Assembly: GCA_017545185.1 (NCBI GenBank)
Contig: JAFWQJ010000012.1
Coordinates: 1-45,424, forward strand
Origin: Oscillospiraceae bacterium
GTDB taxonomy: Bacteria > Bacillota > Clostridia > Oscillospirales > Ruminococcaceae
Direction: 5' to 3'
Length of the DNA stretch: 45,424 nucleotides
Shown: in pieces, positions 23,104-45,361 of the stretch
Position numbering within the stretch: the first letter of the stretch is position 1
Layout of the letters: each line of letters opens with the position of its first letter
Notes under the pieces: model-generated
Database searches by the model: none
Seen by the model: the letters and a program-made list of their open reading frames with translations, nothing else
What the model was told of the DNA's origin: nothing
Translations under genes and position numbers: made by a program

Positions 23104-23109
23104 ATTATA
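23104..23109 (-). promoter_or_regulatory. -10 element of the GH9 gene promoter
   Basis: A minus-strand TATAAT about 146 bases upstream of the GH9 start. The -35 position (TTCCAA) is weak, as at the other sugar operon, and the site is back-to-back with the strong promoter of the divergent AraC gene. The leader of about 140 nt has no recognised fold. Confidence 0.45.
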
Positions 23110-23114
23110 AGGTA

Positions 23115-23143
23115 TTGACAAACAAATTGGAATAGGATATAAT
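23115..23143 (+). promoter_or_regulatory. Consensus sigma-A promoter of the AraC regulator at 23193
   Basis: TTGACA (23115-23120) and TATAAT (23138-23143) are both perfect, with a 17-base spacer. The start codon follows 50 bases later. Confidence 0.88.
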
Positions 23144-23192
23144 ACAAGTTATATGACATTTTGTGCAATTTATGATTGAAAGGAGTAAAGAA

Positions 23193-29321: not shown

Positions 29322-32300
29322 TCATTCCCGGTAAATCACCCCGGGTTGATCTTCGTAGATACGATCCCACCACGGCAGGATCGGCACAGCCTTCGTCGGC
29401 CATTCCACCTGCCTGAGGATCAGCATCAGATCACGGGTGTCCAGCACGCCGTTCAGATCCAGATCCGCATCGAACCGGATCCAGTCCGGGTCGATCGCCG
29501 GATGCTCCGCGAGCAGCGCCGACAACAGCACGGCATCTGCCTCCGTTGTTTCGCCGTCTCCGTTCAGGTCACCGCTCGTGTTCTCCGTATGCCACGATGA
29601 CATGGAATATTCCAGCGGCAGGAACAGGAAATGGTAATAGTCTGAATACCGTGTAAGAGCGATCCCCGGTCTTCCGAACACCACTGCCGATTTCGGAATC
29701 TCCGCGAAAAGTCCCGGCTGATAGTGCTCCACATACAACGAATCATACTCCGCAGCATAAACAGAAGTCGTGAACGTATAGGTCGATCTGCCCGGAATGA
29801 TCCCGTAAGCCTCCGCATAGCGTGTTTCGGTATCCACACGGTACAGAACGCCGTTTTCGGTATCCTCCACGATCTGCATGTTCTCATGCGTCAGATCCGT
29901 CATCTGCATCTTCCACTGCTGGTTCGAGCTTGAAATGTCTGTTGCAGAAAACAGGAACAGCACAAACTCACCCTTCCAGACATCCGCGATCAGCTCACCC
30001 TTTCTTGAGAAGAACGCATCGCCGAGATAGCTTCCGGAACTGTCATACATCTGCACGGAGAGCTTGCAGCGCGCATCGTAGACAGAAAGCTGAACGTCAG
30101 CCTCCAGTTCGGAATAATAGGAATAGATCAGATAGCGGTTTTCCTCGCTGTTCTTCACCTCATATTCATAATCGAGCATCAGCGGTTTGATCGGGATATC
30201 AAGCACCTTCTCATAGCAGAGATCCGCAAGCTCCTCCTTCGGCATGATGATCGGGAAATCCACATCCAGCATACCGACATATCTGCCACAGCCGATGTAA
30301 TTGACGGACGCCGTTCCGATATCTGTATCGTTTATAATGTAACGCTGGACATAGTCCGTTCCTTCCGTCAGCGTATAATCGCCGTCCCGGATCACAATCT
30401 CCGGCGTGACCTGCTCGCCTGTCCAGACCACAGGCTCAGCAATGACCTCGCAGTCGGCCAGTGCCTTCTGCTCCGTTTCCAGCCGGAAATGCAGCGTACC
30501 CTCACGCCGCAGGCCGTTGTACTTCACCATGATATAGCGGGTATCGCCCTTCGGCACGAAGAAGGTCAGCGCCTTGATGCCGGTGCCGGCACACTGCTCC
30601 GTCATGTCCGCCTCCGGTGTGAACACGCGCAGCACGATATCCGGGATGTCCTCGGAAACCAGAAGATAATCGGCAGCTTCCTCCGACGTCATCCGGAACC
30701 ACGCGAGCCGGTTGTCAAGCGTCAGCGGAACGGCATGTTCTCCCGGCGTCAGCTCGGGCGGCTCCTCATCCGGCAGCTTCACTTTGATCCGATAGGTGCC
30801 GGAGCCGGAACCGTAGGAATACTTTGTGGAGCGGAGCGTAAACGGCACCTCTCCGAACATGACATTGGCGTCATCCTCCGCATAGGCAACGATAAAATCG
30901 CGACCCTGCTGCAGGACCGTGCCGTCCTTCATCGTCAGCGTGACCGGTGCCTCCACCTTTCCGCCGGTATATACCGCATCGGTGACAGTCATTTCCGCAT
31001 CGGCCAGCGAATACGGTGCCACCACAGTGATATTCGTCGCACCGCCCCGCTCCGCATACCTGCGGGATACGGAAACGCAGTACAGGCCGTTTTTCAGCAG
31101 ATAGTCATTCTTGTCGTCCTGCATCGGCTGCATCAGCGAGAGCGACTGCAGCTTTTCATCCAGCCGGTAGACCTGATACTGCAGCGCACCGCCGGAGGTC
31201 TGCTCGTTCAGCACGCGGTAGCGCGCACTGGTATAATTGTTCTCCGCGCGGTCCGCACGGAACCAGACCGTCTGAAATTTCTGCTGCTCACAGCTGACCG
31301 CCGCGGTCTCGCCGAGCGGAACGGTCTCCTCCGGCACATTCTGCATCGGATAAATGATCTCGTAGCTGCGCTCGACCCGGCCGATGAACAGTCCCGTACC
31401 GACCAGAAGAATCTTCGCGGAGCCGGGCACCTCATTGCCGGAATGGATGACCAGATAGTCCTCGCCCTCCGTCAGGCGCTCATCCCCGTAGGTCAGCCGG
31501 ATCTTCGGCTGAAAGACCATGTCATCCTCATAGACCGCATAGAGATTGCCGCTCAGATCCGCCTCGCGGATATCGCGCAGACGGTCGGAGATCACCAGCG
31601 TAAATTCGGCATTCCGCTCCTCGCGGATCGCACAGGTCAGATAGTACATCTGACCGGCGTTCATTTTCAGCGAGCCGCAGAACTGCCCGTCATTCTGACT
31701 GGAATACGCGCTCGTCGCATAGACCGTACCGGCGGCATCCGGCTTGCTGGACACGACGCAGAGCGCCGAGATATTCGTATATTGCTGTCCGCCGCGCATC
31801 GTGCCGCTGCGGAGGTAATCCGCCCATTCCTGCCGGAAGCGCGGATCCGTGCCGCCGTAGAAGTAATAGGTACCGGTCTTTTCCGGGATAAACAGCACCG
31901 TTGCGCGGTCCGCCTTGCCGGAGAGCGAGACCGGGATCGGCGTATCTGCCGGAACGCGGTCGATCACATCCGTCCGGACCGTCACGCTGCCCTGATATGC
32001 CCCGAGGCCGAACAGATCCAGCTGATAATGCATATTCCGCTGCGTGATCATCACGGTATAATCCGTGCCCTCCGTGAGCTCCGTACCCGCCGGGGAAACG
32101 ACCTTCAGCGGCGGATGCCAGTCCGCATCAAAGCTGCCGAATGCAGTCGGGATCAGCGAGACCGTGCAGTCTGCAAGCAGCGTTTTTTCGGTATTCGCCT
32201 TCGTCAGAAGCAGCGAACACCGCCGCTGCCAGCGCGGTGCAGCAGTCAGATAATAGGTCTGCCCTGCCGTCAGGTCTGCGGTCATCCGCGCACTGTGATC

Positions 32301-35300
32301 CGGCTGCAGGACAAATCTGCCGCAGAGCCGGCCGTTCTCATCGGTCAGCAGACCGTTCATCGGCGCCTCGCCTGCCGTTTCCAGATACCATTCGCCCGAT
32401 TCCGGCACCGTCAGCTGATAGAAGCCTGTTTCGGTTCCGTCGGCGAACAGCGGCGTCTCCGGCAGCAGCTCCGTACTGGAATGCGCACCGGATACAACGG
32501 CCTTCACATCAAACTGCTCCGTCTTTCCGGCAGTATCGGTCAGAACACAGCGGTAATCGTATTCCCCGATCCGGCCGCTGTCCGGCGAGAACACAAAGCC
32601 GTTCTCACCCGCGAGCGGCTCGGCAGCTTCCCCGTTCAGGCGATACCACTGACAGGTCAGGCCGTCGCCCATTGCCGTCACAAGGAATGCGCCGTATTCA
32701 TGCAGGGAAATCTGCAGCGTTTTTGTATTGACCCGCATGACAAGCGGCTCCTGACAGCGGTGTACCGTTTCACAGGCATCCAGCGCGGAGAGCGTCTCCG
32801 GTGCGTGGATATAGGTCTCCGCATCAAAGGCATCCGCCGCGATCTCCTTTGCGGCATCTGTCAGCTTGACCGCCTTGACGCTGAACATGCTTTCCGTTTC
32901 AAGCGTCTCCGCGTTTTCCAGCACCGCGCCGTAAAGGATCGCGGATGCAAATGCATAGCGCGGAACATGCTTCACGATCGGCAGTTCGATGACGCCCGCG
33001 ATCACGCCGCCGAAGGAACGGAATTCCAGTGTTTCCAGCTGCGGGAATGTGACCGTATCAAAGCCGGTTCCGAGCCTTGTTCCGAAGAACGCATTGGTGC
33101 CCGCGGACTTGATCTTTCCGTAGTCCATGACCAGCGTGAATGCCTCACTGCAGGTCCCGAGCGCGAGTGCATTTTCACGGAGCTCCGTGATACCGGGCAG
33201 TTCCAGCAGCCGCAGCCCGGAGCAGTCCGAGAAGCTGCCCTTTGGGAGCACGGTCACGGTCTCCGGCAGAGACACGCGCAGCAATGCCTTGTCTCCCGCA
33301 AAGACGCCGTCGCCGAGCGTTTCCAGCGAATCCAGCGTCAGACTGCCCTGCCACGCCTTGCAGCCCGCCAAGCAGCTGCTGCCGAGCGCCTTCACCTGCC
33401 GCCAGTCCGGAGCCAGCTCCGTCAGCGCAATGCAATTCAGGCAGGCTTCGCTGCCGAATTCCGTGACAGCCGGGACCGTCAGCTTTTTCAGGCCGGTGCA
33501 GTCCGCAAAGCAGCGGTCAGGCAGCACGGCGAGCGCATTGAGCGCCATTTCCTCCAGGCTGCTGCATCCCTCAAAGACCGATGCGCCGAGCGAATCCGCC
33601 TCCGCATGGAGCGTGACCGCTTCCAGCGCGGCATCACCGAAAAACGCCTCCCTGCCGGCGGTTTTCACGCCGGGTGCCGTGACCGTATCCAGATTGACGC
33701 AGTCTTTGAATGCGCCGTCACCGATCTCCGTGACGGATTCCGGCAGCTTGACCGTCTCAACGGCATGATTGCCTGCAAATGCCTCTGCCGCGACCGCCGT
33801 CACCGGAATGCCGTCCGCGGTCTCCGGGATCGTGACCGATTTGCGGATGCCGGTATAGGACTTCACGGTGCCGTCCTCAATGACCAGCGCACCGGCGATA
33901 TCCTTGCCGCCGATCGTATAGACCGCCTCGGCGGGCACACTGTCGATGTACTTATCCTTCACGGCGATCGCCGTGACTCTTGTCGATTCCGAGATCACGA
34001 GCGGCTCTGTATAGAGCGTGCCGTTCTCCCTGTCTGGGACCGTGCCGTCCGTGGTGTAATAGATCTGCATATCCGGGCTTTCCGCCGTGATGCTGACGGT
34101 CTGCTCCGTGCCGTAATTGCCCGCCTTGCGGGAAAAGACCGGTGCCTTGCAGATGCCTTCATCCCAGTGAAAATTCTTCATGCAGACCAGTCCCCAGCCG
34201 GTATCCGAATCAAATCCGGCCTTGCCGAGGTCGGTCGCATTCAGACAGAGCAGGTTCTCCGCCCGCGCCGCCGTGATCTCCGGATCGTAGCTGCAGAGCA
34301 GCGCACAGCAGGCCGTCACATGCGGCGTCGCCATGCTCGTGCCGTTTTTGGATTCCAGCGTGTCAGCGCCGTCCTTGCCGTAGCTGCGGATGCCGACGCC
34401 CGGCGCGGATACGTCGATCATGTCGCCGTAATTTGAAAACTCCGCACGCTTCATTTCCTCTCCGACCGCCGCGACGGTGATGCAGCTTTCGATGCTGCTC
34501 GGATAGAAATACCGTGCATCGTCCGCGTTATTGCCCGCGGCCGCACAGCAGATGATACCCTTTTTCTCGGCGATCATCATGGCCTCGACCTCAAGCGGAT
34601 TGACGCCCAGACCGCCGAAGCTCATGTTCAGGACATCCGCATCGTTTTCGAGCGCGTACATGATGCCCGCATAGATCTGCTCGTCGCTGGCGGTGCCGTT
34701 GCTGTCGAACGATTTGATCGGCAGGATCTTGACATTGTCCGGCGTCAGCTCGCAGATCGTGCCGGAGACATGCGTGCCGTGGCTGATGTCATCCGCAAAG
34801 CCGTCCGTACCGGAGCTTGAGAAGTTGACGCCGCCTTCCAGCACTCTGCCGTCAAACAGCGCCGGCGCGGTGTTCAGGCCGGTGTCAATGACCGCGACCT
34901 TGACCTCCGGCAGTTCTTTGCCCTTCAAATAAGTGTCGTAAAACTGCTCCGTCCCAATCAGTCCGGCACCCCATGTCATATAGCTGCCGGTATCCAGCGC
35001 GCTGACCGTGCTTTCTTCCGCGGATTCCAGCTCGATCGGGTCGATCTGCACGATATGCGACGGCTGCACATACTGCACCGCCGGATCCTGCTGATAAAGC
35101 TGATATGCCGCATAGGCCGCGGCCGTATCCGCATACTGGAAAATGTGAAGATCGTTGTAGCCGTCCGCTGTTTTCTGTGCACCGTGCGGGTCGATCTGCC
35201 CCTTCGCCTTGACGATCAGACGGGCGGTCTGAAATTCGTTCGTGACCGTCAGCAGACTGCCGTCGGATTCCGTTTCATAGCCGTATTCCGCGGCGGCATC

Positions 35301-35642
35301 CGCAAAGCGCCGGATCGTGCCGGCCGTCTGCAGCCTGCTGTCCGGTGCGGCGGAGACGATCATCAGCTCGCCGTTCCGTATTTTCAGATCGCCGCAGGAA
35401 TCCGTCGGGATGCCGTCCGCAGAGAGCAGCCCCGTTTCGCTGTCATAGCAGACCGTCTCATAGAACGATCTGTTCTCATCCTGCTGCGTCACCGCGGTGA
35501 TCTGCTCCGCAAATGCCGTCAGTGCCGTTCCGTCCGTATCTGCCGCACCCGGAACGGTCACCGCCGTGACCGGCAGTGCCGCGACCAGCTGCATCCCCGT
35601 AACAGCCGCCGTCACGACACATCCGATTCGTTTCTGTTTCAT
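29322..35642 (-). CDS. Giant secreted subtilisin-like (S8) protease with chitobiase-like, LRR and dockerin modules
   Basis: A 2106-residue extracellular protein. In order: signal peptide (about 1-30); propeptide-like region (to about 215); S8 protease domain (about 225-490) with the full triad, aspartate in KVAVIDTGLN (253), histidine in SHGTHVSGT (288) and serine in NGTSMATPH (436); a chitobiase C-terminal-like module (about 500-577, YYTTDGTVPD); BspA-type leucine-rich repeats (about 585-950, e.g. LPESVTEIGDGAFKDC); a long region of beta-sandwich-like repeats, several with an LTEGTDYTV or LTEGEDYLV motif; and a dockerin (about 2023-2082) with calcium loops DLNGDGETTEAD and DADLDLNGVLDTRD, plus a 25-residue tail. 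It should be displayed on or near a cellulosome. Start ATG at 35642 (GGGG eight bases upstream) is chosen over TTG two codons earlier. The helicase stop is 24 bases upstream, so they could share a transcript. Confidence 0.92.
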   Translation of the reverse strand: MKQKRIGCVVTAAVTGMQLVAALPVTAVTVPGAADTDGTALTAFAEQITAVTQQDENRSFYETVCYDSETGLLSADGIPTDSCGDLKIRNGELMIVSAAPDSRLQTAGTIRRFADAAAEYGYETESDGSLLTVTNEFQTARLIVKAKGQIDPHGAQKTADGYNDLHIFQYADTAAAYAAYQLYQQDPAVQYVQPSHIVQIDPIELESAEESTVSALDTGSYMTWGAGLIGTEQFYDTYLKGKELPEVKVAVIDTGLNTAPALFDGRVLEGGVNFSSSGTDGFADDISHGTHVSGTICELTPDNVKILPIKSFDSNGTASDEQIYAGIMYALENDADVLNMSFGGLGVNPLEVEAMMIAEKKGIICCAAAGNNADDARYFYPSSIESCITVAAVGEEMKRAEFSNYGDMIDVSAPGVGIRSYGKDGADTLESKNGTSMATPHVTACCALLCSYDPEITAARAENLLCLNATDLGKAGFDSDTGWGLVCMKNFHWDEGICKAPVFSRKAGNYGTEQTVSITAESPDMQIYYTTDGTVPDRENGTLYTEPLVISESTRVTAIAVKDKYIDSVPAEAVYTIGGKDIAGALVIEDGTVKSYTGIRKSVTIPETADGIPVTAVAAEAFAGNHAVETVKLPESVTEIGDGAFKDCVNLDTVTAPGVKTAGREAFFGDAALEAVTLHAEADSLGASVFEGCSSLEEMALNALAVLPDRCFADCTGLKKLTVPAVTEFGSEACLNCIALTELAPDWRQVKALGSSCLAGCKAWQGSLTLDSLETLGDGVFAGDKALLRVSLPETVTVLPKGSFSDCSGLRLLELPGITELRENALALGTCSEAFTLVMDYGKIKSAGTNAFFGTRLGTGFDTVTFPQLETLEFRSFGGVIAGVIELPIVKHVPRYAFASAILYGAVLENAETLETESMFSVKAVKLTDAAKEIAADAFDAETYIHAPETLSALDACETVHRCQEPLVMRVNTKTLQISLHEYGAFLVTAMGDGLTCQWYRLNGEAAEPLAGENGFVFSPDSGRIGEYDYRCVLTDTAGKTEQFDVKAVVSGAHSSTELLPETPLFADGTETGFYQLTVPESGEWYLETAGEAPMNGLLTDENGRLCGRFVLQPDHSARMTADLTAGQTYYLTAAPRWQRRCSLLLTKANTEKTLLADCTVSLIPTAFGSFDADWHPPLKVVSPAGTELTEGTDYTVMITQRNMHYQLDLFGLGAYQGSVTVRTDVIDRVPADTPIPVSLSGKADRATVLFIPEKTGTYYFYGGTDPRFRQEWADYLRSGTMRGGQQYTNISALCVVSSKPDAAGTVYATSAYSSQNDGQFCGSLKMNAGQMYYLTCAIREERNAEFTLVISDRLRDIREADLSGNLYAVYEDDMVFQPKIRLTYGDERLTEGEDYLVIHSGNEVPGSAKILLVGTGLFIGRVERSYEIIYPMQNVPEETVPLGETAAVSCEQQKFQTVWFRADRAENNYTSARYRVLNEQTSGGALQYQVYRLDEKLQSLSLMQPMQDDKNDYLLKNGLYCVSVSRRYAERGGATNITVVAPYSLADAEMTVTDAVYTGGKVEAPVTLTMKDGTVLQQGRDFIVAYAEDDANVMFGEVPFTLRSTKYSYGSGSGTYRIKVKLPDEEPPELTPGEHAVPLTLDNRLAWFRMTSEEAADYLLVSEDIPDIVLRVFTPEADMTEQCAGTGIKALTFFVPKGDTRYIMVKYNGLRREGTLHFRLETEQKALADCEVIAEPVVWTGEQVTPEIVIRDGDYTLTEGTDYVQRYIINDTDIGTASVNYIGCGRYVGMLDVDFPIIMPKEELADLCYEKVLDIPIKPLMLDYEYEVKNSEENRYLIYSYYSELEADVQLSVYDARCKLSVQMYDSSGSYLGDAFFSRKGELIADVWKGEFVLFLFSATDISSSNQQWKMQMTDLTHENMQIVEDTENGVLYRVDTETRYAEAYGIIPGRSTYTFTTSVYAAEYDSLYVEHYQPGLFAEIPKSAVVFGRPGIALTRYSDYYHFLFLPLEYSMSSWHTENTSGDLNGDGETTEADAVLLSALLAEHPAIDPDWIRFDADLDLNGVLDTRDLMLILRQVEWPTKAVPILPWWDRIYEDQPGVIYRE

Positions 35643-35666
35643 GTTCAATGCCCCTTTTTTATGAAT

Positions 35667-37946
35667 TTACCCGTACATCGGCAGCCCGCCGCTGCCATCC
35701 CCGCAAATTGTATCTTCAATGCTCCCTGTCCAGTTCCGCACCCGCGCGCGCATCTCATCGACCGCAAGAATGCCGTAGGCAAAGCCCTTCCGTACCAGCT
35801 CTGCCGGAACATACTCGTCATATTTTTCAAACAGCGGGATCTCGTCCGGATAGACGAGCTCCAGCGGATCAAATTCCGCCTCCGCCTGCTCCCGCACAAC
35901 GCGGAAAAATGTCTCCTTATCTGCCTTCATCCTGAACGTCATGAAATACGGCCTTGACGGTGCAAGACCCGATAAATGCAGCTCCTGCGCGCATTTTATC
36001 TTCAGCAGGCGCTCCAGTGCCAGAAAGCCGTAGCTGCCGAGCCACGGGAACAGCGCCCACATGTCGCCGCCCATGCAGATCAGCGGCTCGGTCAGAAGTC
36101 CCGAATGCGCCGCGGTATTTCTCGCCTGTGCCAGTCTGGCGACCGCGTTCTTCATGACATAGGGATACTGCTTATCCTCCTGCAGAACGCCGCGCATCCG
36201 TTCGAGGATCTTCGTCTGCATATCGCCGGGGCAGTCTCCGAAATACGCCGGGACCTTGCCCTTGACCTGCGTGCAGTAGACCAGATGCCGGTCAAAATCG
36301 ACCTCGTCCACGACCCACACATGTCCTGCGATCGCGATTTTTTCCCCCGCGGGCGGCGGCTGTACGATCGTGCCGATCTCCTGTGATTCCGAGCGCACGG
36401 TGAACTCCTCGCTGTCCTGAAAAACCGCGTAGAACTTGTAATTATTGATGACGCGCTCCCCCGCGATGCCGGCGATCAGGCCGCCGCGTTCAGTGCGCTG
36501 AATATGATCCTTTTCGATCAGGTGCCGCAGCAGAATGCGGTAGTCATCCTGCGTGATGCGGCCGAAGGGCTGCAGCTTCAGGACGCGCCCCGCAAGCTGT
36601 GCGGGGGTCATCTCGCCGTTGGCCGCCAGTGTGCTCATGGTCTGGTGATACAGCAGACTGAACGGCAGACGATCCAGCTTCGGCGGCTCGACCCAGTGCT
36701 CCTCTGCATAAAGCTGTACCAGCGCGATGCCCTGCAGCAGCTTCCACGGAACCGTGGAAGGCAGCATCGCGCGCGCCTCGGGCTCCTCCTCCCGCATGAC
36801 GAACCACATCTCGGGCGGGAGTCCCCTGCGCCCGGTGCGTCCCATGCGCTGCAGGAATGAGGATACCGTGAACGGCGCATCGAGCTGAAACGCGCGTTCC
36901 AGCTTGCCGATGTCGATGCCGAGCTCCAGCGTCGCGGTCGTGACCGTCGTCATGATCTGCTCCTCGTCCTTCATGACCGCCTCTGCCGTTTCTCTGTAAG
37001 CCGCGGAAAGATTGCCGTGGTGAATCAGGAATCTGTCCGGCTCGTTCTTGCTTTCGCAGTATTGCCGCAGCGAAGTCGTCACGGCCTCGCATTCCTCACG
37101 GGAATTGACGAACACCAGACATTTCTTCCCCTGCGTATGCGAAAAGATGTAGCCGTAAGCGGGGTCAGCCGCAGGCGGTGCCGGATCGGTCTCCCGTTCC
37201 AGCGGCTCCGGCGCATCGACCTCCTTACCATCCGCGGCCTGTGAATCCAGCGCATAAAAATGCTCCATGGAAAGCCGCCATGTGCTTTTCTGCGGCGCGA
37301 TCTGCGGGATGACGGTGTTCCGTCCCGAACCTGTGCCGAGATAAACAGCCGTCTGCTCGATATCGCCGATCGTCGCGGAAAGCCCGATCCTGCGCGGTTT
37401 TGCGCCGGAAAGATCGGAGAGCCGCTCGATCAGACAGAGCGTCTGGCCGCCGCGGTCGCCGCGCAGCAGCGAGTGCACCTCGTCGATGATGACAAAGCGC
37501 AGATCGCGGAACAGCGCGGGGATCATGGCGTGCTTATGCAGCATCAGGGCTTCCAGCGATTCCGGCGTGATCTGCAGGATGCCGGACGGATGCTTCAGAA
37601 GCTTCGCCTTCTGCGACTGCCCGACATCGCCGTGCCAGCGCCAGACTTTGATCCCGGCCGGCTCGCAGAGATCGGTCATGCGCGTGAACTGGTCATTGAT
37701 CAGCGCTTTCAGCGGTGCAATGTAGACCGCGCCGACCGATGCAGGCGGATCCTCCTCCAGCAGCGTCAGCACCGGAAAGAACGCCGCTTCGGTCTTGCCG
37801 GACGCCGTGGACGCGGAGATCAGCACATTGTCCTCCGAGTTGAAGATCGCGTCCGCGGCTGCGACCTGCACCGCACGGAGCTTCTCCCAGCCCGCGCGGA
37901 AAATGTATTCCTGTATAAAGGGCGCATAGCGTGAAAATGCATCCAT
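35667..37946 (-). CDS. Lhr-like DEAD/DEAH-box superfamily 2 helicase (BrxHI-like)
   Basis: A 759-residue helicase. Motif I is ISASTASGKTEAAF (about 43-56), motif Ia YIAPLKALINDQF, motif II VIIDEVHSLLRGDRGGQ (about 152-168), motif III GLSATIGD, and motif VI SFLQRMGRTGRRG (about 370). The KLERAFQLDAPFTVSSFLQR segment and the GRTGRRG form are typical of Lhr-type helicases, and the C-terminal half is Lhr-like without further domains. Such helicases accompany DUF2791 ATPases in BREX type 2 (BrxHI with BrxD) and in TerB-domain operons. ATG at 37946 is preferred; GGAGG lies 11 bases upstream, and an in-frame TTG nine bases earlier is too near to it. The ATPase and TerB genes are on the same strand but about 4.3 kb upstream. 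Confidence 0.9.
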   Translation of the reverse strand: MDAFSRYAPFIQEYIFRAGWEKLRAVQVAAADAIFNSEDNVLISASTASGKTEAAFFPVLTLLEEDPPASVGAVYIAPLKALINDQFTRMTDLCEPAGIKVWRWHGDVGQSQKAKLLKHPSGILQITPESLEALMLHKHAMIPALFRDLRFVIIDEVHSLLRGDRGGQTLCLIERLSDLSGAKPRRIGLSATIGDIEQTAVYLGTGSGRNTVIPQIAPQKSTWRLSMEHFYALDSQAADGKEVDAPEPLERETDPAPPAADPAYGYIFSHTQGKKCLVFVNSREECEAVTTSLRQYCESKNEPDRFLIHHGNLSAAYRETAEAVMKDEEQIMTTVTTATLELGIDIGKLERAFQLDAPFTVSSFLQRMGRTGRRGLPPEMWFVMREEEPEARAMLPSTVPWKLLQGIALVQLYAEEHWVEPPKLDRLPFSLLYHQTMSTLAANGEMTPAQLAGRVLKLQPFGRITQDDYRILLRHLIEKDHIQRTERGGLIAGIAGERVINNYKFYAVFQDSEEFTVRSESQEIGTIVQPPPAGEKIAIAGHVWVVDEVDFDRHLVYCTQVKGKVPAYFGDCPGDMQTKILERMRGVLQEDKQYPYVMKNAVARLAQARNTAAHSGLLTEPLICMGGDMWALFPWLGSYGFLALERLLKIKCAQELHLSGLAPSRPYFMTFRMKADKETFFRVVREQAEAEFDPLELVYPDEIPLFEKYDEYVPAELVRKGFAYGILAVDEMRARVRNWTGSIEDTICGDGSGGLPMYG

Positions 37947-38013
37947 GCTGTACAACGCCTCCGTTCTTTTTATGATACGATCATTTAAGAAAAGTGCTCC
38001 TGCTGTAAATCAT

Positions 38014-38973
38014 TCAGCGATCCGGCTTTTCAATAAACGCCTTCATATCCTGACTGATTCTTTCATACGCATAGTAATGCACATAATGCCCGCAGTCAAG
38101 CTGGATCAGCGTTCCGTCTGATGAAGCATCCGCCATCGCCTGCATCCCGCCTACCCAGAACGCATCATTCGAGGGTTCATTGGAAACGTACAGCAGCACG
38201 GGAACTGTCGGCAGAGGTGCGGAATTGCGTTCATCATTCAGAGCGATGATATTTTCAACATCACCCTCATTCTGCATCGTGTCATTCACGTTTTTGTGAC
38301 AGGCAATTTCTTTGTAAATTGCGCATTCTTCCTCTGAGAGCACGCCTGATTCGTTGTAGTCAAACAGGCGGACAATTCCGACGGCTTTCATAAACCTTGC
38401 AAGCCCGTACACGAATGCATAGTCAGAATGATTTTCTTTCAGTTTATTGACGTCCATACAGTGCGGCGTACACATATCCAAACCAACGATCGCTTCAACC
38501 TCATCGGGGTACTCCTGCGCCCAGCGGGTCGCCTCATAGCCTGAAAACGAGTGCGGGCACAGCACATACGGTGCTTCGATTCCGCACTTTTCGAGCGCCT
38601 CCCTGTCCTGACGGAGGATCGTGTCAAGATCCCGTTCGCCGTCAACCAGATCGCTGAAGCCGTAGCCGAACTTTTCCACAACGACAATTTTATAATCATC
38701 GGAAAGCCTGCTGTAAAGCGGTTTGAAATCCAGGATCGGAGAGGCTGTTCCGTGACCCGACAGGAACACGATCGTGTGTTCTCCCTCACCTTCCGTGTAG
38801 ATGCTCATATTGTGACCGTCTACCTCGACAAGCTGTCCAAGCGGCGTTTCGCAGAGGGCTTTATTCTTTTTGAGCATGATCTGATTGTATACCGCCATAA
38901 TTGCAAGGAATAACACAATCAGGATCAGCAGTCCGAGGAAAAATTTTCCGATTATTCTGAATGCTTTTTTCAT
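38014..38973 (-). CDS. Membrane-anchored alpha/beta hydrolase
   Basis: A 319-residue alpha/beta-hydrolase. An N-terminal membrane helix (about 8-29) is followed by IVFLSGHGTASPI (oxyanion region), VVEKFGYGFSD, the nucleophile elbow CPHSFSGYEA (serine about 142), and a C-terminal DCGHYVHYY histidine. The substrate is unknown; homologues of this type often sit beside DUF2975/YozG genes. A truncated relative lies at 40320-41005, inside that cassette on the opposite strand, showing that this hydrolase belongs to the same gene neighbourhood. It starts at ATG 38973 and shares the control region at 39038-39141 with the divergent DUF2975 genes. The helicase start lies 67 bases past its stop. Confidence 0.85.
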   Translation of the reverse strand: MKKAFRIIGKFFLGLLILIVLFLAIMAVYNQIMLKKNKALCETPLGQLVEVDGHNMSIYTEGEGEHTIVFLSGHGTASPILDFKPLYSRLSDDYKIVVVEKFGYGFSDLVDGERDLDTILRQDREALEKCGIEAPYVLCPHSFSGYEATRWAQEYPDEVEAIVGLDMCTPHCMDVNKLKENHSDYAFVYGLARFMKAVGIVRLFDYNESGVLSEEECAIYKEIACHKNVNDTMQNEGDVENIIALNDERNSAPLPTVPVLLYVSNEPSNDAFWVGGMQAMADASSDGTLIQLDCGHYVHYYAYERISQDMKAFIEKPDR

Positions 38974-39037
38974 ACGGCTCTGCGCCTTTCGCTTAACAAA
39001 TTCCGATCGGTCTCAGCGACACATTTTCAAAAAGAGA

Positions 39038-39141
39038 TTTATGATAAACGATAAATTTTTATCGTGAAAATGCATAACGGGGCTTGCGTATCCGTCATGC
39101 CGGATTGTGCAAGCATCTAATTTTTATCGTTTATCGTTAAA
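39038..39141. promoter_or_regulatory. Inverted operator-like boxes in the divergent hydrolase/DUF2975 control region
   Basis: TTTATCGTTTATC occurs on the minus strand at about 39043-39055 and on the plus strand at 39123-39135, flanking about 65 bases. The left box also contains a perfect dyad ACGATAAA-TT-TTTATCGT (39048-39065). The right box ends seven bases before the TTGACA at 39148. Between the boxes is a GCTTGC/GCAAGC hairpin (39082-39114) with an inner TCCG/CGGA stem. The paired boxes next to both divergent promoters suggest binding of the YozG-type HTH protein encoded at 41014. Confidence 0.6.
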
Positions 39142-39147
39142 AAGTAG

Positions 39148-39176
39148 TTGACAAACATAAAACTTTGTGCTATGAT
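39148..39176 (+). promoter_or_regulatory. Sigma-A promoter of the DUF2975 operon
   Basis: TTGACA (39148-39153), 17-base spacer ending in TGC, and TATGAT (39171-39176). The first gene starts at 39238. Confidence 0.85.
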
Positions 39177-39237
39177 ACAGCCAACGGAGCAACAGGGCTC
39201 CGGACATCATGTTTCAGAAACAGCAAGGAGGTTCAAT

Positions 39238-39783
39238 ATGGAACAAAATCATGATACCGTCAAACAGCAGGCTTCGGAACGCATCCGCAAGTCGGGCAGA
39301 ATCGCGCTGGTCATCACAGTCCTCATTCTGATCGGACAGATCTTCAGCTACGCCGCAAAAATCATATACACCGCAAAACAGCCGGATACATTACAGGATA
39401 TGACGATGATCGGATACCTCACCTTCCGTCCCTACGGCACGATCCCGGATCTGATCGTCAGATGCATCCTGACATTCGGTACAATGGCGCTGCTGCTTCT
39501 GCTGTTCGGCAGTCTGCGCAAAACCGGGCTGCCCTTTACCGAACGGAACGTCAGACTGATGAAAGCAGCAGGGGTCCTGCAGGGGCTCCAGGCTGTTCTG
39601 CCGGCCGTTTTCCATGTCGTGCAGATTATTTTCTACGACGGCATTTCCGTTGTCAGTCACTTCCGGGATTTTTTCCGTTCAATCAATCATGTCACGTTCG
39701 GTGTCTGCGCGGTGCTGTTCTTCCTCGCATGGACATTCCGCTACGGCATCGTGCTTCAGACGGAATCCGACGAAACGCTCTGA
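39238..39783 (+). CDS. DUF2975-family membrane protein, copy 1
   Basis: A 181-residue membrane protein with four predicted helices (about 18-40, 62-85, 112-132 and 143-165). The segment KTGLPFTERNVRLMKAAGVL between helices two and three is the DUF2975 hallmark. DUF2975 proteins are of unknown function and are commonly paired with a YozG-type HTH regulator, as here (41014). Start ATG at 39238 has AAGGAGG seven bases upstream. The next gene, 21 bases on, encodes a second, shorter family member; both end in LQxESDETL, so they are a tandem duplication. Confidence 0.85.
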   Translation: MEQNHDTVKQQASERIRKSGRIALVITVLILIGQIFSYAAKIIYTAKQPDTLQDMTMIGYLTFRPYGTIPDLIVRCILTFGTMALLLLLFGSLRKTGLPFTERNVRLMKAAGVLQGLQAVLPAVFHVVQIIFYDGISVVSHFRDFFRSINHVTFGVCAVLFFLAWTFRYGIVLQTESDETL

Positions 39784-39804
39784 CTGTATAAGGAGGAATC
39801 AACA

Positions 39805-40299
39805 ATGACAAAATCCGCAAAAAGCAAAACAGCGATCATCGCATGGCTGAAAAAGTGCAGCATCGCAGTCTGTGTGCTCTGTGCGATCTCCGCATTCTTC
39901 AATCTGAAAGGCGGATTACAGATGCTGTTCATGACCGGGAATGCAGAGCCGGGGGCTTACATCTTTGAAATGTTCCGGAAAGGCATCACCAGCCTGCTCC
40001 TGACCGTGATCATGGGAATGGGCGCTGTCATGTTCTTCCGCATCTCTAAGGAGGACAGTCCGTTCCGGGACAGAAATGTCCGCACCGTTCACATCATCGG
40101 CGTGCTGTTTCTCGTGACTGCATTTGTTCCGGCACCGGCCGCTTTCGTCATCAGCACGCTGACCGGCGCAGGTCCCTCTGCGATCGAGGCGCTGCTGATC
40201 AATCTTCCGACAGCCGCCATCGGTCTGCTGATGCTGTTCATCGGGCAGATCCTGCATTACGGCACGATGCTGCAGCTGGAATCCGACGAAACGCTCTGA
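39805..40299 (+). CDS. DUF2975-family membrane protein, copy 2
   Basis: A 164-residue membrane protein with four predicted helices, and SKEDSPFRDRNVRTVHIIGV in place of the PFTERNVR motif of copy 1. The C-terminus LHYGTMLQLESDETL closely matches copy 1 (FRYGIVLQTESDETL), indicating duplication within the operon. AAGGAGG precedes ATG 39805. The two proteins might form a hetero-oligomer; function is unknown. It is followed 20 bases later by the decayed hydrolase and then the HTH regulator. Confidence 0.82.
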   Translation: MTKSAKSKTAIIAWLKKCSIAVCVLCAISAFFNLKGGLQMLFMTGNAEPGAYIFEMFRKGITSLLLTVIMGMGAVMFFRISKEDSPFRDRNVRTVHIIGVLFLVTAFVPAPAAFVISTLTGAGPSAIEALLINLPTAAIGLLMLFIGQILHYGTMLQLESDETL

Positions 40300-40319
40300 C
40301 AGCTCCGAAAGGCATACCG

Positions 40320-41005
40320 ATGACAAAACGCAAACACCGTCCGCTGAACATCCTTGCAGCGATCCTGCTGATCCCGCTGCTGCTCTGCGCCGCATTCGCT
40401 GCGGGGCTGTACGGCTATAACCGGCATCACTGAAAAAAGAATCCGCACTGATCCGGCATCAGGGGCAGTATATTGAGATCGGCGGCAGGAACATGAACCT
40501 TTATACCGCGGGCAGCGGAGACAAAACGCTCGTGTTCATGGCCGGTACAAATACGCCCGCCGTGATCTTCGATTTCAAGCCGCTGTGCGGTTACCGGCTT
40601 TACAATATCAACAAGGTGTTCCCGGCTGCGGCAAGCCCCGATCTGACGGAAGCCGAGCGCGCGGAATACAGGGCGATCACCTATCTCTGGTACAGCCGGT
40701 TTTATCAGACCGCGATGTTCCGGGAAGGCATCCTGACCGAAGCACAGCGCAGTGATTTTCAGGCCGTCCGCGGCAGTCCCGTGCCGGATGTGCCGACCCT
40801 GCAGCTGCTTTCCTCTGATGAAGCGACCTTTTCGGTGATGCTCGGGGAAAACGGCCTGCAGAAATGGCGGCAGCTCCATGAAAACTATAACGCAGCACTG
40901 ACAACCGGCAGACTGGTTCAGCTTAACTGCGGGCATTATATCCATGTGGAAGCCCCTGATGCAGTCAGCGCGGAGATCTGCAAATTTCTCGATGAGATAC
41001 AGTGA
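40320..41005 (+). pseudogene. Decayed alpha/beta hydrolase: frameshift and internal deletion
   Basis: The remnant begins with a ribosome site (AAAGG) and ATG at 40320 encoding a membrane anchor (MTKRKHRPLNILAAILLIPL), but that frame stops at 40433. One base out of frame, the sequence continues with LKKESALIRHQGQYIEIGG, NMNLYTAG and TLVFMAGTNTPAVIFDFKPL, aligning with residues about 45-86 of the intact hydrolase at 38014-38973. It then jumps to YRLYN and a region matching residues about 200-315, including LVQLNCGHYIHVEA. Roughly 115 residues with the catalytic serine elbow are missing. A lost base near 40428-40432 and an in-frame deletion explain it. A 170-residue frame from 40493 could still be translated, but not as an active hydrolase. 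It lies between DUF2975 copy 2 and the HTH gene. Confidence 0.82.
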
Positions 41006-41013
41006 GGTGCGAT

Positions 41014-41226
41014 ATGGCAATTATTTTACGGCTCGACCGCGTCATGGCAGACCGGAAAATGAGCCTCAACGAATTAAGCGAAAAGGTCGGCGTCAGCAAT
41101 GTCAATCTCTCCAAGCTGAAAACCGGAAAGGTCAGTGCGATCCGCTTTTCCACGCTGAACGCGATCTGCACGGCACTGCACTGTCAGCCGGGAGATATCC
41201 TCGAATTTACCGAGGACGATGCGTAA
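41014..41226 (+). CDS. YozG-type Cro/C1 HTH regulator
   Basis: A 70-residue DNA-binding protein, MAIILRLDRVMADRKMSLNE followed by LSEKVGVSNVNLSKLKTGK and IRFSTLNAICTALHCQPGD, ending EFTEDDA. This is the compact HTH family typically encoded with DUF2975 proteins. It probably autoregulates its operon and the divergent hydrolase through the boxes at 39038-39141. ATG at 41014 with GAGGTG just upstream; a GTG four codons earlier overlaps the remnant hydrolase stop. A terminator hairpin follows 24 bases after the stop. Confidence 0.92.
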   Translation: MAIILRLDRVMADRKMSLNELSEKVGVSNVNLSKLKTGKVSAIRFSTLNAICTALHCQPGDILEFTEDDA

Positions 41227-41249
41227 CTGCCCGCCCCCGGAAATACAGC

Positions 41250-41293
41250 AAACACGCGGCAAGAATCTGCTACCGGATTCCTGCCGCGTGTTT
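41250..41293. terminator. Bidirectional terminator between HTH and cyclophilin genes
   Basis: AAACACGCGGCAAGAATC and GATTCCTGCCGCGTGTTT pair over 18 positions with one mismatch, giving A-tract and T-tract ends for both convergent genes. Confidence 0.75.
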
Positions 41294-41335
41294 CGTCTTG
41301 TACTGTATCTGCGCAGGATGTCCCTTTGCGTCGGC

Positions 41336-42184
41336 TTACTCCGCCGCTTCCTCCGTCATTGTCGTTTCTTCCGGTGCATCGGTCTCCTCCGGCGCATCGG
41401 TCACTTCTGCTTCCTCCGGCTCGGTATCGGTCTCGTCCTCTGCTTCGGGTTCCTCCTCGGCTGCGGGTTCTGTCTCAGCAACGGGCTCCTCCTCAGCGAC
41501 GGGTTCTTCCTCGACAGGCGGTTCTTCTTCCTCCTCAGCGACCGGGATCGGCATCATCTTGACCTCGATGCGCGGATGACCCTCGGCATCGTCCTCGATC
41601 TGCCAGACGATCTCCATGACGATCGGCTCCGTCGGCGAGGAAGCCTCACCGCCCATGCTCATCGTGACAGGGACCTTCAGGAAGCTGTCAACGACCTCCA
41701 TGCCCTCCGTGACTTCGCCGAATGCGGCATAATTGCCGTCCAAGAAGGATTCGTCACCGTAGCAGATGAAGAACTGGCTCGATGCGCTGTTCGGATCGGC
41801 GCTGCGTGCCATGGAGACGACGCCGCGCTGATGCGACAGATTATTCTGGACACCGTTGCTGCTGAACTCGCCCTTGATCGTTTCCTCGCTGCCGCCCATG
41901 CCGGTGCCCTGCGGGTCGCCGCCCTGTGCCATAAAGTCGATCATGACGCGGTGGAAGGTCAGCCCGTTGTAAAATCCCTCATTCACGAGCTTCTCAAAGT
42001 TCTTGCAGGTGATCGGTGCGACATCCGGATACAGCGTGATGATAAACGAATCCTCGCCGACCTTTGCCTCGCTGATCGCCTGCAGCTGTGCATCTGTAAA
42101 AGCGGGACGCGTATCGCCGCAGCCGCACAGTCCCGTCAGCAGCACCATGGCCGCCGTACAGATCGCAGTCTTCTTCAGTTTCAT
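41336..42184 (-). CDS. Cyclophilin-type peptidyl-prolyl isomerase lipoprotein with acidic tail
   Basis: A 282-residue lipoprotein. The signal peptide MKLKKTAICTAAMVLLTGLC ends in the lipobox CGCGD. The cyclophilin domain (about 45-195) has FHRVMIDFMAQGGDPQGTG, FSSNGVQNNLSHQRGVVSMA, SASSQFFICYGD and LDGNYAAFGEVTEGMEVVD, with the catalytic arginine in FHRV. It should aid folding of exported proteins at the outer face of the membrane. After the domain come about 70 residues made almost wholly of Glu, Pro, Ala, Val, Thr and Asp (repeats of EEEPVAE type), a low-complexity acidic tail. Start ATG at 42184 has GGAGAGG upstream. It lies 61 bases after the DUF2791 ATPase stop on the same strand, with no obvious functional connection to it. 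Confidence 0.93.
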   Translation of the reverse strand: MKLKKTAICTAAMVLLTGLCGCGDTRPAFTDAQLQAISEAKVGEDSFIITLYPDVAPITCKNFEKLVNEGFYNGLTFHRVMIDFMAQGGDPQGTGMGGSEETIKGEFSSNGVQNNLSHQRGVVSMARSADPNSASSQFFICYGDESFLDGNYAAFGEVTEGMEVVDSFLKVPVTMSMGGEASSPTEPIVMEIVWQIEDDAEGHPRIEVKMMPIPVAEEEEEPPVEEEPVAEEEPVAETEPAAEEEPEAEDETDTEPEEAEVTDAPEETDAPEETTMTEEAAE

Positions 42185-42245
42185 CTAAAAACCTCTCCTT
42201 TTGGAATACTGTATAGAAACGCGGTTGCCCGCGGTTTCTGCTGTA

Positions 42246-43565
42246 TTACACGGTAAACTCCGCGTATTCGTCCTCGACCGGCTCCTGTTCCTCCAGTGCC
42301 GTCGGGGTATAGGTAAAGCCGGCTTCTCCGCCGAGCAGTCCGGCGACCGTGCTGCCGGGATGCTGCTGCAGGATATCGAGCACCTCGATAAAGTCGCGGA
42401 TGACCTCGCGCGGCGTCAGATTGCTGTCCGCGCCGATGCGGCCGTATTCGATCTTGATGAAGGCGTCCATATCCGCCGCCGTGACGATCTGCTGATAGTC
42501 ATAGAGCACCGCATGGATCTCCGCCAGCTTCTCGACGAGGATGCGCATTTCCGCATAACTGAGCGGTTCCAGACGGATGATCGGCGCATGGAGATTGTTC
42601 TGCCCGTCGCAGTATTTTCCGTCCACAAGCCGCGATTTCAGCGCCTCGTAGCTGTAAATGCCGCGCCGCGAATCCTCCATGCACTGGGGCGTGCCGCACA
42701 TCACAATGCCGAGATACTGCGCCTTGCCCTGCATCGTGTCATTGTACATCGTCAGGATCTTCTCGTAATTCTTCTCGCGGGAAATGCTCTGCGGGATCTT
42801 GTACAGGTTGACGAGCTCGTCCACGAGCACGATCAGACCCTGATAGCCCGCCTGCTTCAGAAACATCGCGAACAGCTTGATGTATTCGTACCAGTCGTCA
42901 TCGCGGATGCAGATACTCACGCCGAGATCGTTTTTCGCCTCGGTCTTGGTCTGGTACTCACCGCGGAACCATTTGACGACCTTCGCCTTGGTCTCCGCGT
43001 CGTCATTGACAAAGGACTGATAATAAATGCGAAGCAGCGTCGCGAAGTCAAAGCCGTGCACCAGTGCGCTCAGCGAATCGACGACCGTATAGATCTGCTG
43101 CTCGACCAGCTTGTGGAACTGCGGGTCGGTCAGCTCCAGACCGCTCTTTGCCGCGACATCCATGCGGATGCCGTTGATCCAGCGGTCGAGGATCAGCGAA
43201 AGTGCGCCGCCGTCCGGCTTTGATTTGGTCGAGAGATTCTGCATCAGCTCCTTGTAGGTGCCGAGTCCCTGCCCGTTCGCGCCCTGTAATCTGCGCTCCG
43301 GCGAAAGGTCTGCGTCACAGACCGCAAAGCCTCTGTCCATTGCGTAGTTGCGCACGGTCTGCAGCAGAAAGCTCTTGCCGCTGCCGTATTTGCCGCTGAT
43401 GAACCGGAACGACGCGCCGCCGTCCGCCATGACTTCAATATCGTGCAGCAGTGCTTCGATCTCACGCTCTCTGCCGACTGCAATATACTGCAGACCGATG
43501 CGCGGCACGACGCCGCCCTGCAGCGCGTGGATCACCGCGCCCGCCATTCGTTTCGGGATATTCAT
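42246..43565 (-). CDS. DUF2791 (BrxD-like) P-loop ATPase
   Basis: A 439-residue ATP-binding protein. Near the N-terminus are the conserved IPKRMAGAVIHALQGGVVPR start, IAVGREREIEALL, and Walker A FISGKYGSGKSFLLQTV (about 55-71). Walker B and arginine-finger regions follow: GLIVLVDELVNLYKI (about 250), LGIVMCGTPQCMEDSRRGIYS, and a C-terminal winged-helix-like segment LTPREVIRDFIEVLDIL. This is the DUF2791 family that includes BrxD of BREX type 2, and that also occurs with TerB-domain proteins and Lhr-type helicases. Its start overlaps the stop of the TerB gene by four bases (ATGA), so the two are translationally coupled and presumably form one complex. The C-terminal 15 residues are acidic (EEQEPVEDEYAEF). 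The helicase partner is about 4.3 kb downstream. Confidence 0.9.
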   Translation of the reverse strand: MNIPKRMAGAVIHALQGGVVPRIGLQYIAVGREREIEALLHDIEVMADGGASFRFISGKYGSGKSFLLQTVRNYAMDRGFAVCDADLSPERRLQGANGQGLGTYKELMQNLSTKSKPDGGALSLILDRWINGIRMDVAAKSGLELTDPQFHKLVEQQIYTVVDSLSALVHGFDFATLLRIYYQSFVNDDAETKAKVVKWFRGEYQTKTEAKNDLGVSICIRDDDWYEYIKLFAMFLKQAGYQGLIVLVDELVNLYKIPQSISREKNYEKILTMYNDTMQGKAQYLGIVMCGTPQCMEDSRRGIYSYEALKSRLVDGKYCDGQNNLHAPIIRLEPLSYAEMRILVEKLAEIHAVLYDYQQIVTAADMDAFIKIEYGRIGADSNLTPREVIRDFIEVLDILQQHPGSTVAGLLGGEAGFTYTPTALEEQEPVEDEYAEFTV

Positions 43566-45217
43566 GTTTCCAGCATTCCTTTCAGGTCTTCCGCATAGTC
43601 TTCGATCAGCACCGGTGTATCGTCATCCTCCATTTCGATGACCGTATCACCGAAGGTATCATACAGGTTTTCGTTGATCTCATCCGCCAGCACCGAGAGC
43701 ATCTGTCCCGCATCCACGAGCGGCTGATAGGATTCGCCCGTCACCAGACAGATCAGCAGTGCCATCGCCGGTGCGCTCAGCGGCAGATCGGGCAGCTCGC
43801 CGTCATCGTCGTCGTCCTCTGCCGGCTCCTCCGGTTCGGGTGCTGCGGCTTCGGGCTGCTCGTCCTCCGGCAGCGTCAGCATATCGGTCGTATGCTCCGC
43901 CGCCTGCCGGATCTTTTCCAGTTCTTCCTCGTTCAGCGTGATGACCGGCGCATTCTTGCGCTTCTGCTCCTCGAAATAATCCGCGATCGCTTTCCGGATC
44001 ACTTCGGCATCGCCCTCCGGCAGCTCGCCTGCCTTCAGCTTGCCCTTGAACCCGAGCTGCTCCCGCAGCATGGAGTCGATCGTCCGCAGCAGTTCCCCGA
44101 TGCGCGCGGCATTCGGACTGCCCGCGAAGGTCTCCTTCGCCCAGCGTCCCTGATAACAGTGATACACGCAGAGCGGGGACAGCCGGTAATCGCCGTTCGG
44201 CACAAGCGTCCGCTGATAAAAGACCGCGCCCTCGAACATCAGATGCTCGCTGCGTTGCTGCTCACCGAGCAGATACGCAGAAAAGGACTTCTCCTTTTTC
44301 TCCGCGTAATAGGTCAGCAGCGCCTTGTAGACCGCCTTGACGATCTCGGCGACCTGCTCCGGCTCTGCAAGATAGAGCTTGGAATTTTTGATGTGATATT
44401 TGGAGAGCGTGTCCAGCGCGAGCAGCAGATCCTTCGCTGTCTGCGCACTGTGACGCAGCACCGTGATCGCTGCCGCCTCCTTTTCGTCCTCCAGACGGTA
44501 CGGCTGCTGATAATACGCCGCAAAATCCGGGATCCAGCGCAGCAGCGACTTCTTCACGGACGGGAACTGCTCCCCGTAATCCCGCAGCAGCTGACTGAGC
44601 GCATCGTATGCAAGCTCCGCGCTCTGGAACCCGATCAGATTCAGAATCTCATAGGCATACAGCAGCAGAAATGCATTCTGTGCAGGCGGCAGCGCACCCA
44701 TGCGGTAGCGCGTGCGCCATGTGAAGTATGCGCGCAGCTCATTGTCCTTGAGGTTATAGTACATCGGCACGGAGCGTCCGCACTGTACCGTATCCGGGAA
44801 ATCGTCAGTGAAATTCTCCATGTATTTGCCCTGCTGATAAAAGAGGCTTTCCATGGAACGCTTGCCGTCGAGATTGTTGTAGCCGGAGAGCGTCCGCATC
44901 TGGCGGATCTGCTGCGGCACCGGATAGAACATCGCCGACGGATTCGCAAAGATCGACTGCTCGCCGTAGATCTGCGCGGAATGGGATGCCGTGCCGGGCT
45001 TTCTTCTCGCGGATGACGGCTTTTTCGCTGCCGATGCCGGTTTCTTCGCTGCCGGCTTTTTTGCAGCGGATGCCGGTTTTTTGGCAGCAGGCTTTTTCGC
45101 GGCGGGCTTTTTCGCAGCCGGCTTTTTCGGCTTCGGCAGCTGCTCGTCCTGATAAGCCTCCTCCGCGGCGCGGAACAGCCGCTTCAGCATACTGAGCATA
45201 CTCATTTCGCAGAACAT
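43562..45217 (-). CDS. TerB-N/TerB-C domain protein with lysine-rich, histone H1-like N-terminal tail
   Basis: A 551-residue protein. Residues about 28-74 are tandem AKKPA-type repeats (Lys/Pro/Ala/Ser only), a highly basic disordered tail like histone H1 C-termini, likely to bind nucleic acid. Next comes a TerB-N domain (about 100-290: NELRAYFTWRTRYRMG, FLLLYAYEILNLIGFQS), a helical middle part, and a TerB-C domain (about 420-551: ITLNEEELEKIRQAAEHT). A run of acidic residues with a DDDDD core lies near 470, and IEMEDDDTPVLIEDYAEDL near the end. TerB-N/TerB-C proteins are known to accompany DUF2791 ATPases and Lhr helicases in predicted DNA-processing systems. The start is uncertain: ATG 45217 is longest, ATG 45205 is 12 bases from a GAGGGGAG site. 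It heads the operon, with its own promoter. Confidence 0.85.
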   Translation of the reverse strand: MFCEMSMLSMLKRLFRAAEEAYQDEQLPKPKKPAAKKPAAKKPAAKKPASAAKKPAAKKPASAAKKPSSARRKPGTASHSAQIYGEQSIFANPSAMFYPVPQQIRQMRTLSGYNNLDGKRSMESLFYQQGKYMENFTDDFPDTVQCGRSVPMYYNLKDNELRAYFTWRTRYRMGALPPAQNAFLLLYAYEILNLIGFQSAELAYDALSQLLRDYGEQFPSVKKSLLRWIPDFAAYYQQPYRLEDEKEAAAITVLRHSAQTAKDLLLALDTLSKYHIKNSKLYLAEPEQVAEIVKAVYKALLTYYAEKKEKSFSAYLLGEQQRSEHLMFEGAVFYQRTLVPNGDYRLSPLCVYHCYQGRWAKETFAGSPNAARIGELLRTIDSMLREQLGFKGKLKAGELPEGDAEVIRKAIADYFEEQKRKNAPVITLNEEELEKIRQAAEHTTDMLTLPEDEQPEAAAPEPEEPAEDDDDDGELPDLPLSAPAMALLICLVTGESYQPLVDAGQMLSVLADEINENLYDTFGDTVIEMEDDDTPVLIEDYAEDLKGMLET

Positions 45218-45243: not shown

Positions 45244-45272
45244 ATTATACCACAAAAGCAGCCGCTTTGCAA
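45244..45272 (-). promoter_or_regulatory. Sigma-A promoter of the TerB-ATPase operon
   Basis: On the minus strand TTGCAA (45272-45267) and TATAAT (45249-45244) are separated by 17 bases. The -10 is about 27 bases before the first possible ATG. Confidence 0.8.
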
Positions 45273-45361
45273 GGAGTTTCACGCGTTTTCATAAACCGAA
45301 CTGTAGGAATGTCAATGATAGGTGACAGATTCCTTCCAAAAAAATACGAAGCACCAGAATT

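Follow-up and report, generated by a model that had tools for sequence, protein, structure and literature searches.

A Shango locus with its helicase gene set apart in a genus of Ruminococcaceae

Do a TerB-domain gene, the ATPase gene that it overlaps and a helicase gene lying 4.3 kb further on the same strand still form one system, and if so, which one? The question is raised by a contig of an Oscillospiraceae bacterium of the family Ruminococcaceae (JAFWQJ010000012.1, assembly GCA_017545185.1), whose entire length of 45,424 bases was analysed and is called the window here; the genome is a bin of 3.6 Mb in 94 contigs, 95% complete. The original prediction, made from the letters alone, saw in these genes a minimal ATPase-helicase-TerB module for DNA processing or defence. 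The three do belong together, but they already carry a name and anti-phage data that the prediction missed, those of the Shango system (SngABC), an identification that we regard as practically certain. What is new is thereby not the system but the variant form that it takes here, which is split, core in its genus and endowed with a SngA that has an added part.

Identity of the three genes

The genes lie where they had been placed, including the overlap of four bases between sngA and sngB (43562-43565):

43562..45217, reverse strand: sngA, TerB_N/TerB_C protein (PADLOC SngA 201.8 bits, E 8.9e-60; Pfam TerB_N 58.2 bits, cut-off 25, and TerB_C 68, cut-off 26.3), which consists, from its N-terminus, of a helix, a basic disordered insert, an acidic linker and, at the C-terminus, a winged-helix-like domain
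42246..43565, reverse strand: sngB, BrxC/BrxD-type AAA+ ATPase (Pfam BrxC_BrxD 546.5 bits, cut-off 22.2), with Walker A GKYGSGKS and VDELVN
35667..37946, reverse strand: sngC, Lhr/BrxHI-like superfamily 2 (SF2) helicase (Pfam DEAD and Helicase_C), with motifs TASGKTE, DEVH, SAT and QRMGRTGR; the frame is open also from a TTG at 37955
45244..45272, reverse strand: sigma-70-like site before sngA (pattern match)

The predicted families were recovered as well, namely TerB-N/TerB-C, DUF2791 (which we take to be the former name of Pfam BrxC_BrxD) and an Lhr-like helicase, the best solved relatives of SngC including Lhr helicases. Judging by eye from a Shine-Dalgarno-like spacing, translation of sngA likely starts at the ATG at 45205 rather than at 45217.

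Since DUF2791 and Lhr-type proteins also make up the BrxD/BrxHI pair of type 2 bacteriophage exclusion (BREX), the locus could be read as a remnant or subtype of that system, and the homology behind this reading is real: SngB matches BrxD (182.6 bits), SngC matches BrxHI (412.3 bits) and the SngB model also matches BrxC of a BREX complex (9zll, E 3.3e-3). The Shango models, however, are ahead by 400-500 bits, with 601.1 bits for SngB (PDLC03959, E 3.5e-181) and 900.6 bits for SngC (PDLC03960, E 2.4e-271), and PDLC03958 covers residues 82-549 of SngA; the genome holds one strong match apiece for the ATPase and helicase models. Moreover, SngB reaches only 183.5 bits with the curated NCBIfam BrxD model (NF033438, cut-off 350), and PglZ, a defining feature of BREX type 2, was not matched anywhere in the genome at E 0.001. 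The scores, the missed BrxD cut-off and the lack of a PglZ match together identify the genes as Shango, so that the likeness to the BREX pair noted in the original prediction stands as homology, its judgement that this is not BREX was right, and a BREX remnant (PglX was not searched for) is ruled out as hardly credible. The TerB protein likewise proved to belong with the pair, although not as a loose companion, for it is SngA itself. In a wider grouping, SngC, BrxHI, DruE and DpdJ have been placed together as a possible SF2 clade in the Hachiman paper (PMC12278908).

Shango from Pseudomonas aeruginosa PA14 and Escherichia coli shares with the present locus the three families, their strand, their order and the coupling of sngA to sngB. 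What sets the window apart is that sngC lies 4.3 kb off behind other genes, where the three are usually adjacent, that SngA contains a basic disordered insert and that almost every species of the genus has the locus at a conserved chromosomal place. From BREX type 2 it differs by the TerB partner, besides the points above. Adjacency seems to be usual but not defining, because contiguous relatives exist in the same genus (L043, L044) and SngC co-varies with SngB. The anti-phage activity of the PA14 system is on record (PMC10250203), and the present split locus quite probably protects against phages too.

The split and the genes in the gap

The genus was sampled with 30 genomes, all metagenome bins, of which G005, G011, G014 and G018 are only 75-83% complete, and absences from these four may be gaps. 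In two genomes, G013 and G015, sngABC is contiguous (14 and 2 bp between sngB and sngC), and the remaining 23 with parts of the system are called here the split clade, 20 members of which stand on one side of a fully supported branch (100/100) of the SngB tree. The sngB-sngC gap measures 837 to 4830 bp in 17 of them; in the other six (G002, G007, G012, G017, G024 and G026) contig ends intervene, and assignment was made via the neighbours of sngB or sngC. The view that other genes now lie between the parts of the module is borne out by this comparison. In the window, the gap and the far side of sngC contain, as had been described for the gap:

41336-42184, reverse strand: cyclophilin (Pfam Pro_isomerase), with a lipoprotein-like start and an acidic C-tail by eye
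41250..41293, after the cyclophilin gene: terminator-like 18-bp inverted repeat (pattern match)
39148..41226, forward strand: DUF2975/hydrolase-fragment/helix-turn-helix (HTH) cassette, facing the sngAB unit
39148-39176: promoter-like site of the cassette (pattern match)
39148-39783, forward strand: DUF2975-like open reading frame (ORF), slightly below the Pfam cut-off
39805-40299, forward strand: DUF2975-like ORF, above the Pfam cut-off
40493-41005, forward strand: hydrolase-like fragment
41014-41226, forward strand: HTH-like ORF of 70 residues (by eye)
38014-38973, reverse strand: alpha/beta hydrolase directly before sngC (weak family matches only)
29322..35648, reverse strand: subtilase with LRR_5 repeats (Pfam), about 2100 residues, likely start ATG 35642, beginning about 25 bp beyond the sngC stop

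Of the 23 split-clade genomes, at least 22 have a cyclophilin at the locus, at least 22 SngC, at least 18 SngA, at least 15 DUF2975b and at least 12 DUF2975a, the counts being minima on account of contig ends. Relatives of the hydrolase, on either strand, occur there in at least 7, and on the strand and in the place seen in the window they occur only in the window's own genome and in G021. In G007 the cyclophilin gene is on the sngC contig and not beside sngB. We take the cyclophilin for a passenger that is resident in the gap of this clade. The strong hairpin after its gene, the cassette on the opposite strand and the apparent start of a new unit before the hydrolase make it probable, as far as such patterns can tell, that sngC is transcribed with its new neighbours, apart from sngAB.

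How often the parts separate elsewhere was seen in 85 loci outside the clade, 13 named split-clade loci being left out. There, sngA and sngB are at most 100 bp apart in 70 of the 73 measurable cases, mostly with an overlap of 4 bases (median minus 4), and sngB and sngC are this close in 59 of 74, with 100-1000 bp in 13 and more in 2. Nine gaps of 450-670 bp contain varied small genes, by eye acetyltransferase-like, kinase-like or oxidase-like among others, and in R. albus 8 (L117) 648 bp separate sngB from sngC. Moreover, sngC is on a different contig from sngB in G124, G148, G166, G173 and G188, no sngC occurs in the stretches around sngAB of the first four, and one locus (L113) has the order A-C-B. 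Throughout, more than 100 bp between sngA and sngB was found only in G007, L066, L068 and L113. On these data of spacing, contigs and order, sngC appears to have become detached from sngAB on several occasions, whereas a separation of sngA from sngB is rare. The original prediction had staked itself on profile matches and on clustering in relatives: the profiles match, and the three genes co-occur and cluster.

Two of these cases deserve a separate mention. In L066 and L068, both from the same genus of a different family, sngA and sngB have additional genes between them, including one for a protein of 268 or 273 residues that looks alike by eye in both, and sngC is on another contig. In L157 and L158 (G173 and G188, two species) a lone sngC is preceded by a gene for a 237-residue protein and followed by one for a protein of 363-381 residues, a second conserved position, here of a sngC on its own. 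Among the open-access PMC papers and passages listed by the literature searches, no split Shango and no basic SngA stretch was found.

Separation could mean that the split broke the system and that it is now decaying, a reading that would fit with a sngC standing apart, probably under another promoter, with a SngB interrupted by one in-frame TAG in G017 and with the SngC not found in G012. The sequences, however, tell otherwise. The helicase motifs are kept in 19 of 19 SngC rows, and full-length SngB rows retain those of the ATPase, two of them with LMDELVN instead of LVDELVN. The ratio of nonsynonymous to synonymous substitution rates (dN/dS) stays far under 1 across the tested pairs: 0.017-0.051 for SngB (eight pairs), 0.037-0.048 for SngC (six), 0.071-0.169 for SngA (eight) and 0.097-0.192 for the pseudouridine synthase RluA (seven), the single housekeeping yardstick used for both selection and the species tree. 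Furthermore, pairwise distances within the split clade, in which the pairs are not independent, correlate at 0.961 between SngB and SngC (105 pairs) and at 0.904 between SngA and SngB (136 pairs), compared with 0.677 between RluA and SngB (136 pairs; 0.805 in the 105 pairs of cyclophilin-bearing genomes). By their correlations and dN/dS the Shango genes have remained jointly constrained since the split, and decay is highly improbable. As to the TAG of G017 (L046), it cuts SngB into 305 and 108 residues and represents either a pseudogene or an assembly error.

An alternative of a different kind assigns a working role in an extended system to the cyclophilin, DUF2975 cassette, hydrolase or subtilase. 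The counts at the split-clade loci given above speak for it, together with the presence of the subtilase gene after sngC in 22 of the 23 cases seen and a match of its subtilase domain to the PADLOC model 'subtilase' (PDLC03014, 72.4 bits). Co-variation gives it no support, since cyclophilin distances follow neither SngB (rho 0.025, 153 pairs) nor RluA (0.057) and those of the subtilase follow SngB weakly (0.278, 91 pairs). In addition, both proteins have export-type starts by eye, the contiguous Shango of G013 and G015 is without cyclophilin and cassette, and different genes occupy the same gap in other Shango loci. We keep an extended system as a rival, if an improbable one, the cyclophilin having another history than the Shango genes. 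That a gene should stay at the locus while its divergence tracks neither SngB nor RluA is a peculiarity in itself, for which gene conversion, exchange with a paralogue or fast star-like change could be considered.

The basic insert of SngA and a possible mechanism

In an ordinary SngA a short N-terminal helix leads directly into the core (V-Y-x-D-E-P-I), but the split clade has between the two an insertion of some 30-60 residues that is enriched in K, R, A, P, S and T. In the window this insert corresponds roughly to residues 25-86 of the 551-residue reading, and the AlphaFold2 model gives a helix at 7-23, predicted local distance difference test values below 50 at 25-53 and 58-86, and a confident core. 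The net charge before the core is +16, and a stretch with net +18 in 45 residues is the highest among the 21 window proteins examined. Eight split-clade loci have +5 to +16 before the core, as opposed to -3 to +1 in the contiguous or outgroup loci L043, L044, L058, L061 and L072. Among 71 database homologues of at least 47% identity, assigned to the split clade by that identity and not by gene order, 65 have +5 to +21, and three of the six below +5 (P0037, P0066, P0068) begin only at the core or within it; nine more distant homologues have -7 to +4. It is the composition that is conserved, while the letters vary.

Bacterial proteins such as AlgP and HupS have basic tails like that of histone H1. 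The SngA insert is a stretch of this H1-like kind, long, disordered and rich in K and R, with the same K/A/P- or R/S/T-rich composition, but it differs in being inserted between an N-terminal helix and the TerB_N core. The insert likely serves to bind DNA loosely. At the other end of SngA a weak match to a winged-helix-like fold was found, and the predicted model of SngB may share the fold of Orc1/Cdc6 initiators and TnsC, AAA+ loaders on DNA, at about 12% identity. No nuclease domain was found in SngA, SngB or SngC.

The best explanation that we can offer, to which we give about even chances, is a lineage-specific split Shango in which SngAB is a DNA-bound loader and SngC a helicase that acts in trans. 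Co-produced from their overlapping genes, SngA and SngB would form a complex on DNA in which SngB is the Orc1/Cdc6-like ATPase and SngA the regulatory partner that contacts DNA through its winged-helix-like end and, in this clade, through the H1-like basic linker. On meeting invading DNA, SngAB would load or activate SngC in trans, and translocation or unwinding by the helicase would halt phage replication; with no nuclease domain in the three proteins, either the work of the helicase would itself be the attack or a host nuclease would finish it. The sngC of the split clade, parted from sngAB by the cyclophilin gene and often by the DUF2975 cassette, would still serve the complex, and the basic insert would keep the loader on DNA. 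We hold this loader mechanism tentatively, with somewhat less than even confidence, its loader-and-motor half being suggested by gene coupling, predicted fold and family. That the insert may allow the helicase to be produced elsewhere is a thought prompted by insert and split sharing one clade.

A long-held chromosomal place and its meaning

SngB, with fragments counted, is present in 25 of the 30 genomes of the genus and SngC (E 1e-100) in 24, including all 13 with a completeness of 90% or more and a contamination of no more than 5%. Cas1, taken as the control defence gene, occurs in 13 of the 30 and in 8 of the same 13. Two further genera of the order have SngB in 3 of 3 and 5 of 10 genomes and, overall, 54 of 199 genomes have a match at E 0.001, some of these being fragmentary or weak. 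A subtilase gene follows sngC within about 1.3 kb in 22 of the 23 genomes of the genus with that side visible, the exception being G029, and is the positional anchor of the locus; relatives of this gene (E 1e-60) occur in 29 of the 30, often in more than one copy. On the other flank, by names given by eye, G007, G010 and G013 have an EF-G-like gene, and G003, G004, G021 and G025 have lysA-rluA. In the window's genome rluA is found near the end of another contig (C5), and that end (L168) shares with the region upstream of sngA a stretch of 25 bp (window 45277-45301) that appears once, between rluA and sngA, in G021 (L049). An insertion therefore probably separates rluA from sngA in this genome, presumably with a long direct repeat that broke the assembly. 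Altogether, most species of the genus carry Shango at a long-held chromosomal place.

Such a distribution suggests another reading, in which the genus co-opted Shango for housekeeping (maintenance of the genome or of plasmids, or DNA repair), which would explain why it is core, strongly constrained and now non-compact. The full set of near-complete genomes with SngC as against Cas1, dN/dS values of SngB and SngC below those of the pseudouridine synthase, the steady subtilase neighbour and the finding that the scanned ORFs of the window (all with Pfam, 8 also with PADLOC) include no further known defence family are in its favour. Dispensability weighs against it. Neither SngB nor SngC was found in G006, where only 193 bp, empty of genes, separate the EF-G-like ORF from that of the subtilase, and its closest relative G013 (100/100 in the subtilase tree, 100/98 in an RluA tree built from sequences taken by tblastn) has the order EF-G, sngA, sngB, sngC, subtilase. 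Since Shango precedes the subtilase in G015 and in the split clade as well, a loss in G006 is the more parsimonious interpretation. G014 has no Shango either, and none within 14 kb before its subtilase; the RluA tree places it beside G013 and G006 (97/99), the subtilase tree apart from them with G011 (100/100). The Shango-less G006, with the site filled in its sister, and G014 make the system dispensable. Moreover, SngA diverges about 2.5 times as much as SngB, as a sensor of changing targets might. We thus regard co-option as rather unlikely.

A mobile island at the locus was also considered and rejected, there being, besides the lack of other defence families, no Rfam hit in the window and no SngB match at E 1e-20 in the phage collection. 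Plasmid records with a SngB-like match number 690, each below 60% identity and not sorted into SngB and BrxD, and in the two examples examined the TerB, ATPase and helicase genes are consecutive.

Among named records, 'Ruminococcus sp. Phil11' is one of the nearest, with 98% identity in SngC, along with further bins of Oscillospiraceae that come from rumen and gut. Elsewhere in the window, 20574-23228 encodes a GH9 cellulase with CBM_4_9 and dockerin, an enzyme of cellulosome type, and a GH3 glycosidase is spread over two overlapping ORFs, with its N-terminal domain in one (15884-17062) and its C-terminal domain in the other (17053-17958), from a true split or a frame error.

Returning to the split Shango with its proposed loader, these natural splits indicate that sngA and sngB seem to need joint production and that sngC can lie apart, a pattern that leads to the testable hypothesis that AB is the loader and C the motor. 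A table of a 2026 review (PMC12926258) counts Shango among the systems of unknown mechanism, and no solved structure matches the sequence of SngA or SngB at E 0.001. A broader proposal, which we consider possible but doubtful, would see in Shango generally an Orc1/Cdc6-like loader against invading DNA, uncoupled from its helicase independently in several lineages, and in this genus a core, vertically inherited system whose SngAB patrols the nucleoid by means of the H1-like stretch and summons a separately expressed SngC in trans. The spacing found here also suggests that predictors requiring tight clustering may miss such loci, and the lineage offers a natural experiment on a defence system turned core.

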